Below, piece after piece: positions 45,801-64,000 of a stretch of 64,000 nt of DNA. A program made the position numbers and the translations under genes. Source of the DNA: Amphibalanus amphitrite (lineage: Eukaryota; Arthropoda; Thecostraca; Balanomorpha; Balanidae); NCBI RefSeq assembly GCF_019059575.1, contig NW_024882027.1, positions 413,739 to 477,738 of the forward strand, in the 5' to 3' direction. Position 1 is the stretch's first letter; the number at the start of each line of letters is the position of its first letter. The notes below the pieces were generated by a model, which was given only the letters and a program-made list of their open reading frames with translations, made no database searches and was not told the origin of the DNA.

Positions 45801-46143
45801 GTAAGTACCGATGTGCTAGAGCATTGCGTGCCGTTGAGTGGTGCTAATTTGACCTGGTTAACAGGACCCCGTGCACGGCCACGTGGCCTAGTGTTGTGAG
45901 TACGTACATTAATTTTGTTGTGATGCTACAAGTTTATGCATTTTGTTGGTGACTTTGAAAAAGCCTTGCACTGTAGTGATCCAGTCTCATTATCTCACGC
46001 AGACGGGCGACCACCCAGGAACGCCGTCGCTCACTTCAAATATTGTGCGCTCTGCCTAATCCAATATGAGGGCGCTGAATGTCTTGTATTCATATTCAAA
46101 TTGCATTCAAGTTGTATCGTGGTGTTTGTAACAGCTGGAAGCT

Positions 46144-47031
46144 GTGACATTTTTTTCTCCGTACATCAAAAAGGACATCTCTCACACTCTATACGTAAGG
46201 ACGATCGCACTGCCTGCCGCGGCGCCGAGCCAGCGTGGGGAGGGAGTCGACTATACGATCCCCCGACCCGTCGGCCGGTCACCATTAGCGAAGATCAAAG
46301 GCTCGCCGAAGGGTGGAGTACAAACACACCCATCCGGGCCGGCGCAGTGGCCGCCGAAAAACGCAACGCAGCCGGAAAACACCTGCTCCCGGTGCTGGAC
46401 CAGCCTCCCGACGCCTGGCGCCACGCACATCCTGCCGACGCAGCTGACAGGAAGATGGGAGGATGTCGTTGCGGTCAGCCGTCCGGCACAGGCAGGGACC
46501 GACATCCGGCGAAAATCGAGTGTGAAAACGTCATCCGGCAGGAGACAGCTGAGACGGATGAGCCGAGCAAGTGAGGATGACGTCACGTTCCGGCGGAATG
46601 GAGGAGGAGGGCGACGGTCTCGACTCCGGATGCGAGACGGGATGTCGCCAATTTTCTGCCCCGGTCAGGGAGGCCCGCCGACGCCCGGAACCTCCGGCCC
46701 GGAAATCACGGGAGAACAAAACTCAATGCAGAAGGAGAGAGGGGGACAGACTACGGGATCAGACCACGAGATTCAGACAGACCCGAGACCGACCACCGGA
46801 GGCCGACCACCAGAGACAGAACGCCCCGGGACTCGGCGCGGGACACCGCCCCGCCCGGCTTCGGCCGGAGCGGCCTCTCTGCTGATCGGATCATCACTGC
46901 ACCGGACCTCAGCTGGAGTGGACAGCAATCATCAAACACTGTCAAGTGAGTCATCTCATCTGTCCGCCTCATCAAGACTGCCTCCCCGTCATGGACAATT
47001 CACCTCCCATTTACCCGTCGGATGTCTCTGA
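46144..47031 (+). other. Long open frame at the 5' end of the LTR, unknown
   Basis: Open for 295 codons but starting at a GTG, with no ATG until about codon 140. The second LTR (59000-59722) keeps the same frame for 240 codons because small indels compensate. The product would be Pro/Arg/Gly-rich with no recognised domain. The GC-rich composition alone could keep it open, so I do not call it a gene. Confidence 0.2.
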
Positions 47032-61900: not shown

Positions 61901-64000
61901 TCGGCACGCAATTGCGTGTGACTGACTGAAATGAGTGGGTGAGTGAGAGGGCGAATGTGAATGATCCTAGTGAGAGAGAGAGAGAGTGAGCGAGAGAGAG
62001 AGAGAGAGAGAGAGAGAGAGAGAGAGAGAGAGAGAGAGAGAGAGAGAGAGAGAGCGAGAAGTGAGTACGAGAGAGTGAAGCGAGAGAGAGAGAGAGAGAG
62101 AGAGAAGAGAGAGAGAGAGAGAGAGAGAGAGAGAGAGAGAGAAGAGAGAGAGAGAGAGAGAGAGAGGAGAGAGAGAGAGAGAAGAGAGAGAGAGAGAGAG
62201 AGAGAGAGAGAGAGAGAGAGAGAGAGAGAGAGAGAGAGAAAGAGGGAGGAGGATGTCGAAGCAAAACGTTTTAATTCAGTCTTTACAAAGATCGACCCCA
62301 TAAATGAAAGGTTTTGGTACAAAGTAGATGCGTAGCACTCTACTGCCACCTAGCCAGTGTAGCCTACAACTACATCCACTAGGCGGCGCCAAAAGCGTCG
62401 ATGAGTCGACGCTCGATGAGTCGATGAGTCGAGAATGGTCGCCGGTCAGGTGTGGAACAAGGTCATGTCCCCGCTAAGCTCATAATTACAAGCATTTAAG
62501 GATGCTTATCACCTAACCCTCCACGTTGGCTTAATTTACAAATCTTGTAATATGTAGATTCGATGAAATATCTTTTGTTTAAAGGACTCAGACCAACAAC
62601 AAACCAAAGGTCTGAGTTTCAACTTCGTTTCAACAGCTAAACAAATGACTGAATCAAACAAAGATGGCTTTTGATCACAGGGCACCTTCTCAAATGATCT
62701 AAATAACATTTAGTGATCATTGCATTGGAATACGTTCAATTTGTCGAAACCTTTCAAGTAAGGCGTGATAACTCATTTAACCAGCAGGCAAAAGTGACCG
62801 TCGCGCTAATTCAACCCAGTTAGGCAAACGGCGAGGACAGTTGAACCTCACGAGTAGGTATGACCCGGTCCCTCGCCGCTGGATCGGAAAGAGCGCTGGT
62901 CACCGGCCCTCAGCTGCACCGCGAACAATGCACCGATATGGGCCTGCTGGAGAACAAATTATCTGTTAAAGACAGCTGGACGAACCCTTCTTTCAACGAT
63001 TGACCCATGCTGACTTTAGTAGAAAAGACGGACAAATTTGCGGGTGGTCAAAAGGGGGAGAAATAGACAGCAGTCGCATATCATCAAATTTTAGCAAATC
63101 TTGGTGAACAACTCTACGGTTTAATTCTGGGAGAAACTGGCTACCTTTGTCAGTTGAAACCAAACTCTACATCGTGCATGCCACCAAATCAGATTAGCAG
63201 ACAATTATAGGCTAAAAGGCAGGAATGGAGAATAACTTGTGTTATGATTGAGCGCACATCACTAAACTTAGAAATTGACAGAAAGAGGCCACGGCTGAGT
63301 CAGATGATACTAGATTATTGAGCCGCACTAGGGACTTATGAGGAAATTACACCCACCCCAGTCACATTTCTAGTGTCATTCCCTAACAAACATGTACAAC
63401 AAAAGGTCAAAGATCATTGCCACCCCAAGCTAGGATGACATTCAATCTCATGTCATGCGCGGCGTGAAAAGCCACTGACAACTATACTTACAGAGTTTCG
63501 GAGGGATACGTTAAAATTAAGGAATGCAAAGATGATACCTACGAAGTTGTGGCAGATCACCTCATGGACCCAAATTACGGTTTGATACCAACATTTTGTT
63601 TTAAAGAATATATTTTTGCCTAAGTGTCAGTTAAGAAAAGGTCGCATGACCCTTGAGTACTCACTGGCCAGTGGATTATGCCAGTTAATAAATTCAGATG
63701 ATAAATCAGTAGCATGCATCAATTCGAGTCAGATTATTCCCAGTAACATCCAAGGTTATTTGACCCCTTTCTATTGACATGATCTGTTGAACATGGAATT
63801 TCAATGTCAATGATCATTGACCTCTCAAGTCACAACTGATCTCATATCTGGCCTTGGATGCTAGCACAACAGTTTCAGACCAGTGCAGTTTCACTTAACA
63901 TCCTGGAATTGAAAATTTATAAGGCATCATTGAACATGACAAACTTTGTCAGGTGACGGAACAGATACAACGATGATTACCCATCTTTGCCGAGCCATCA
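58983..64000 (+). repeat. 3' LTR, first 5018 bp (continues past the window)
   Basis: Matches 46127-51169 throughout. The net difference is 25 bp, all as small deletions here; I noticed only a handful of base changes. Its GA array (61971-62240) has several single-base losses that break the dinucleotide phase. Confidence 0.9.
61971..62240 (+). repeat. (GA)n microsatellite in the 3' LTR
   Basis: Same array as at 49139, but with about five single-base phase breaks (AGAAGAG or AGGAGAG). Confidence 0.95.

Follow-up and report, generated by a model that had tools for sequence, protein, structure and literature searches.

The 64,000-nt stretch of the Amphibalanus amphitrite genome analysed here (the window, C530:413739-477738) contains, from position 46127 to its last base, most of a transposable element that runs past the window end. 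We conclude, with a probability of roughly 0.85, that this element is a young non-autonomous long terminal repeat (LTR) retrotransposon, derived by internal deletion from an errantivirus-like Ty3/gypsy family and presumably mobilised in trans. Contig C530 itself stops at window base 64000, and the rest of the element, about 20.7 kb in total, was sought together with its relatives in the whole assembly (807.6 Mb in 2,644 contigs). All window features given below lie on the forward strand.

Both repeats of the window element open with TGTAACAG, at 46127 and 58983, and 46127-51169 is 98.8% identical to 58983-64000 over 5,053 columns. The 5′ LTR (46127-53931, TGTAACAG...CATCATCACA) measures 7,805 nt, with boundaries that agree with those of the complete 3′ LTRs on C200 and C117, and the first 5,018 nt of the 3′ LTR (58983-64000) take up the sequence to the contig end. 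Judging from the position of the TATA motif, U3 would extend over about 7.5 kb (46127-53625); it holds a 123-nt direct repeat in two copies (52801-53044), and a GA-rich microsatellite at 49138-49412 within the LTR varies in length among copies. A TATA-like TATAAAT (53596-53602) and an ATTAAA that is a candidate poly(A) signal (53864-53869) both have counterparts at nearly equal distances from the LTR end in C851, a coding relative. The interior (53932-58982, 5,051 nt) starts with CTC, the 3 nt that separate the LTR from a perfect 18-nt primer-binding site (TGGCGCCCAACGTGGGGC, 53935-53952), and closes with a polypurine tract (AAAAGAAGAAGCCTGAAAA, 58964-58982) directly before the 3′ LTR. An initial annotation of the window had proposed such a two-LTR element with these starts, an LTR near 7.8 kb, a 5.0-kb interior and about 20.6 kb in all, as well as a tRNA-Lys primer site at 53935 and TATA and ATTAAA motifs in U3/R position, and our measurements agree with it on every one of these points.

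The missing half of the element was found on C117. This contig starts within a 5′ LTR and continues through an interior into a 3′ LTR (9664-17500, 7,837 nt) that ends in ACA and is directly followed by GTGTT, the same five bases that precede the window 5′ LTR (46122-46126) as the 5′ copy of a 5-bp target-site duplication (TSD). Over the 2,174 nt compared, the window 5′ LTR and the C117 3′ LTR show 0 differences; at other loci the same stretch has 20-21 substitutions relative to the window. Furthermore, the empty site, that is, the two flanks joined with one GTGTT, has 286 matches in the genome at up to 3 mismatches (all exact among the 100 listed), against 0 for a reversed-pattern control, which makes the target of the window insertion a dispersed repeat. 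To judge from this agreement, C530 and C117 are the two halves of one insertion locus, other copies of the repeat showing the uninterrupted sequence. Two more contig pairs, C824/C228 (TSD GAAG) and C1764/C839 (TSD AGTG), behave alike, and a single substitution was counted over 2,173 nt in either case; as the contigs were paired by their truncated LTRs and by similarity, these are not fully independent tests. All three pairs end inside near-identical giant LTRs, which is why the assembly breaks here, and TSDs together with LTR identity allow the halves to be assigned to each other.

Direct terminal repeats of the TG...CA type were found at unlinked loci. Forty LTR starts were scored out of 174 first-look candidates; 22 of the starts make 11 same-contig pairs with a spacing of 12.0-12.9 kb. 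TSDs flank nine of the ten full-length loci with both ends read, 4 bp long at seven and 5 bp at two; those on single contigs are GTGAC (C200), CCAG (C548), CTTA (C306), TATG (C681), AAAC (C403) and ATAC (C81). Solo LTRs, with foreign DNA on both sides, carry TSDs in all three cases tested (C302 ATAC, C8 GTAT, C893 CTTG), and 11 further 3′ flanks read without a 5′ partner were left out of these counts. What the window displays, a single pair of direct repeats with constant spacing that reaches the contig end, could also stem from a duplication of about 12.85 kb, segmental or tandem, that only resembles an LTR pair, and long tandem arrangements do exist in relatives, with three LTRs and two interiors on C851. 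Such a duplication is nevertheless extremely improbable, since the same boundaries recur at many unlinked loci and the primer site and polypurine tract sit exactly at the expected positions; the TSDs and the solo LTRs rule it out, and the empty site counts against it as well. The predictions made beforehand, namely a second repeat ending in ACA at the equivalent of 53931 and followed by GTGTT, and the existence of other copies and solo LTRs, thus came true: the second repeat does not end early, copies are present and no tandem-duplication junction was found.

The LTR pairs also bear on the age of the insertions. At the five loci where both LTRs were compared (the window counted via C117) they differ by 0-2 substitutions. 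The C200 pair has 2 in about 7,606 aligned columns, and the first 5.5 kb of the C81 pair has 0 mismatches in 5,529 columns, with gaps present. Such near-identical pairs indicate that the copies moved recently, and the window element is itself a recent insertion.

Two further arrangements of LTRs were seen. At C2:2771550-2771650 (L077) an LTR end is followed by about 10 bases and the next LTR start, an LTR-LTR junction from which the interior is gone. In C152:269072-656490 and C171:86488-359067, 14 rows of LTR matches with identities of about 81-84% lie without exception on the minus strand. A unistranded flamenco-like cluster was considered for these and rejected, because eight of the nine flanks read have common upstream sequence, so that a larger unit holding one LTR insertion was duplicated rather than many insertions being made.

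The interior of the window element aligns in order to the coding interior of C851 (locus L052) in three parts: the leader and early gag (to 56254), a gag-pol remnant and the region before the 3′ LTR. The remnant (56479-57795) is 67% identical over 1,356 columns to L052:298-1608 and comprises a degenerate gag with its zinc-knuckle region, protease (PR) and the start of reverse transcriptase (RT); all of its three frames are interrupted, by 10, 11 and 13 stops, and its matches to L052 switch frame. At 57796-57819 lies a deletion junction, at which the flanking matches stop at L052 position 1608 and resume at 7304, and 57820-58982, the env 3′ end and pre-3′-LTR region, is 61-62% identical to the coding relative. 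The window element lacks the intervening L052 1609-7303, about 5.7 kb that comprise the remainder of pol and the greater part of env. The junction stretch (57701-57900) is continuous in the two other copies checked, C200 and C81, and the deletion is therefore older than the copies; window positions 55049-59940 match C200 at 94.9% over 4,942 columns. Pfam models gave nothing above cut-off on the open reading frames (ORFs) submitted from the element, and the only trace of genes in it is the broken stretch from gag to the start of RT, with no intact coding gene of its own. By its alignment, the window element is related to a Ty3/gypsy family of this genome that is coding and bears env, and it has undergone an internal deletion relative to that family. 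The initial annotation had called the interior non-coding, which holds in that there are no working genes; it is not simply unrelated DNA, given the frame-broken gag-pol remnant.

In C851 the LTR end and leader are as in the window element but the interior is coding. Pfam recognises in L052 a zinc knuckle, RVP, RVT_1, RNase H (RH), integrase (IN) and a Baculo_F-type env, with gag, then PR-RT-RH-IN in this order, and env as a separate frame after pol at this one locus. The env-like frame matches Baculo_F in two pieces (E 3.9e-15 and 1.6e-7), and the Pfam Gypsy env model remains below its cut-off on it (E 0.002). A piece of the RT occurs at nine places with 98-100% identity, and the next match reaches 76% (of 3,667 candidates, 104 were scored). 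Interiors of the coding loci measure 9,573-9,691 nt, C195 totals 25,450 nt, and 4-bp TSDs were found at six of six loci tested. On C851 (135319-217569) three LTRs and two coding interiors stand in a row between outer 4-bp TSDs (CATC). These relatives thus appear to be env-bearing Ty3/gypsy elements, errantivirus-like by domain content and gene order.

LTRs usually measure a few hundred bases to a few kilobases. In the window family, by start and end coordinates, they measure 7,643 nt in C200, 7,512 in C548, 7,587 in C306, 7,647 in C579, 7,124 in C681, 7,686 in C403, 8,606 in C81, 7,837 in C117 and 7,827 in C839, and the solo LTRs of C302 and C8 measure 7,368 and 7,740 nt. The longest, C893 (11,922 nt) and C228 (12,362 nt), probably contain insertions. 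Coding relatives are as large, with 5′/3′ LTRs of 7,884/7,884 nt (C195), 7,841/7,849 (C63), 7,979/7,981 (C1533), 7,788/8,534 (C921) and 9,466/9,470 (C110), and single LTRs of 8,437 nt (C356) and 8,438 nt (C1843). The middle LTR of C851 reaches 19,352 nt including an insertion of about 8.4 kb that is absent from the third LTR, which leaves about 10.95 kb. Insertions of this kind, in C851, C893 and C228, raise the question of whether the LTRs are of normal size and owe their great length to other elements nested in them, and an old insertion may have been fixed in the common ancestor. We hold this to be improbable, as the window LTR has 7,805 nt, nine other measured family LTRs fall at 7.1-8.6 kb and those of the coding relatives at 7.8-9.5 kb. 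The proposal of a giant-LTR LARD (large retrotransposon derivative, reportedly the meaning given in Kalendar et al. 2004) therefore stands as regards LTR length; the giant LTR is, on the other hand, not peculiar to a non-coding element, coding relatives having LTRs of 7.8-9.5 kb or more. The C851 LTRs hold nested insertions, one of which has 0.6-kb flanking direct repeats (97%) and no long frames.

With up to 3 mismatches allowed, the primer-binding site has no second match in the window, and shuffles give an expectation of 0.04. The 18 nt complement the 3′ terminus of a tRNA-Lys(CUU) gene present in the genome: the complementary tRNA 3′ end plus T-arm occurs at four genomic places, and on C256 ARAGORN found a tRNA-Lys(CUU) gene in the stretches around two neighbouring matches. 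The exact site with a 3-nt spacer has 24 matches in the genome (control 0), namely 14 in the window family, 2 in C851 and 8 at dissimilar loci; C200 and C81 have a perfect site with a 4-nt spacer and so fall outside this pattern. The eight (L016, L022, L027, L019, L015, L023, L036 and L038) are LTR loci with the exact tRNA-Lys site that are unlike the window element, and several of their contigs recur among the RT matches at 73-74%.

To locate what the gene-less element has kept, the window was compared with C851 over 52331-54240 in 50-nt bins and over 58301-59400 in 25-nt bins. Three blocks stand out. The first, 52481-52780 in U3, is 86-100% identical to C851 and might be a cis element. The second, 53531-54080, is 90-100% identical and comprises promoter, R, U5, primer site and leader; indeed, it contains the TATA motif, the ATTAAA, the LTR end, the primer site and the leader start. 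The third, 58951-59000, covers the polypurine tract and the LTR start (0.92-0.96). The remaining bins are at 0.54-0.86 in the first region, bar two empty bins in a gap, and at 0.04-0.76 in the second, bar 59351-59375. Kept blocks of this kind are the pattern predicted by trans-mobilisation, and they would represent the cis signals needed by borrowed machinery. Gene-carrying relatives probably mobilise the window element in trans.

Several observations weigh against this interpretation. Over 4,665 compared sites, the two LTRs of the window itself are separated by 16 substitutions and 21 indel events, probably because the sequence is poor near the contig end; within the 2,174 nt compared, the C117 LTR is free of the differences seen in the window 3′ copy. 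Three of the ten full-length loci have ends on different contigs, joined by deduction, C579 has no TSD with both ends read, and at C391 the 3′ end was searched for and not found. The block comparison relies on a single coding locus, C851, and stretches outside the blocks are also conserved, with 0.92 in bin 59351-59375 and 0.78-0.86 across 52331-52480. Mobilisation in trans is what we infer from recent gene-less copies together with coding relatives that have common termini. Finally, recent recombination with the coding family could account for the conserved blocks and is the first-order alternative to cis signals. In its full form, with recombination or template switching producing the blocks and the element being dead or moved by another family, we regard this alternative as unlikely though of some weight. 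The blocks have rather sharp edges, the one at 52481-52780 is without an evident function in replication, and the 18-nt tRNA-Lys site of the eight dissimilar loci makes the primer common to other families. Yet two of the blocks coincide exactly with signals indispensable to every LTR element, and the near-identical LTR pairs, with the recent movement they imply, speak against a dead element.

In the proposed replication cycle, transcription would begin at about 53,625 of the 5′ LTR and stop near 53,890 (in LTR coordinates) of the 3′ LTR, yielding RNAs of about 13 kb from the window element and about 17.8 kb from its coding relatives. A coding relative would supply the proteins that package the window-element RNA, copy it with tRNA-Lys(CUU) as primer and integrate the copy.

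The leader that follows the primer site is a repeat array (53962-55408) with eight exact copies of a 12-nt palindrome, GTTGCATGCAAC, which occurs eight times in the window and in the leader only. Within 1,500 nt after the primer site, each of 14 window-family loci has 4-8 exact copies; there are 3 per C851 leader and 0 at the eight other tRNA-Lys loci. Among the eight window units, 10 of 12 palindrome columns are invariant, against 15 of 60 elsewhere (Fisher p 0.0002), the units of one array not being independent. Folding of the eight single units as RNA gave no clear signal against shuffles (z -2.15 to +1.22), and an Rfam scan of 46000-64000 returned 0 families. That the palindromes act in dimerisation or packaging is a guess. 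It forms part of a still speculative and rather doubtful picture of a two-part parasite system in an animal, in which genes of ordinary size would lie between LTRs of 8-11 kb, the RNAs of about 18 or 13 kb would be mostly or largely U3, and the non-coding partner would compete for particles through its amplified palindromic leader array as dimerisation or packaging signals. The interior might instead still code, for example for a leader-repeat protein (ORF 54107-54994, 295 codons), as an open frame of the window runs across several repeat units and 162 nt is divisible by three. This is very improbable: frame lengths vary by copy (166, 228, 240, 295 and 358 codons, for example), for which a coding role of the repeats was rejected, the Pfam matches are all below cut-offs (E 0.0014-0.0043), and the homologous leader of the coding relative precedes its gag frame.

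Among known systems, the LARDs are like the window element non-autonomous, with long LTRs and a large interior without working genes, and are moved in trans, as we suppose for the window element from its sequence. Their interior is conserved in sequence and RNA structure among copies. They differ in that plant LTRs are of 4-5 kb (the figure of the initial annotation) versus about 7.8 kb here, in a host that is not a plant, and in that the window interior is a recognisable gag-pol deletion remnant. A retroelement env of arthropod type and the glycosyl hydrolase family 16 gene of the window suggest an animal host. The coding relatives agree with errantivirus-like Ty3/gypsy elements (Metaviridae) in the gag zinc knuckle, PR-RT-RH-IN, the Baculo_F-type env after pol, the TG...CA ends and the 4-bp TSD. 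LTRs in that group are usually of a few hundred bases, whereas those of the coding relatives reach 7.8-9.5 kb or more, in a total of about 25 kb. Dasheng/RIRE2 of rice is another non-autonomous element with termini, primer site and polypurine tract common to a coding partner, as in the window element, from which it differs in host and in its much shorter LTRs. A review describes LARDs along with two giant families (PMC6431247). Ogre of plants, as given there, is a giant Ty3/gypsy element with an interior of 11-13 kb, its size coming largely from LTRs of 1.9-6.5 kb, which are termed extraordinary (PMC6431247); the elements found here are likewise giant chiefly through their LTRs, which are longer, and have another host. 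Burro of planarians, gypsy-like and with env homology, exceeds 30 kb owing to a long interior of up to 25 kb (PMC6431247). It shares with our elements the giant animal gypsy-like type with env homology, and differs in that here giant LTRs enclose an interior of ordinary size (9.6-9.7 kb). No animal LTR of such length and no animal LARD is described in the literature surveyed, a partial, open-access view. A family with LTRs of 7.8-9.5 kb, young copies, and coding and non-coding members in one genome offers a case for studying why U3 grows long. It also invites the questions of how packaging and copying work for an RNA of presumably about 18 kb, and of which signals are indispensable to an element that has lost its genes.

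Outside the element, window positions 40852-41844 hold a 330-codon frame that matches glycosyl hydrolase family 16 (E 8.1e-15).
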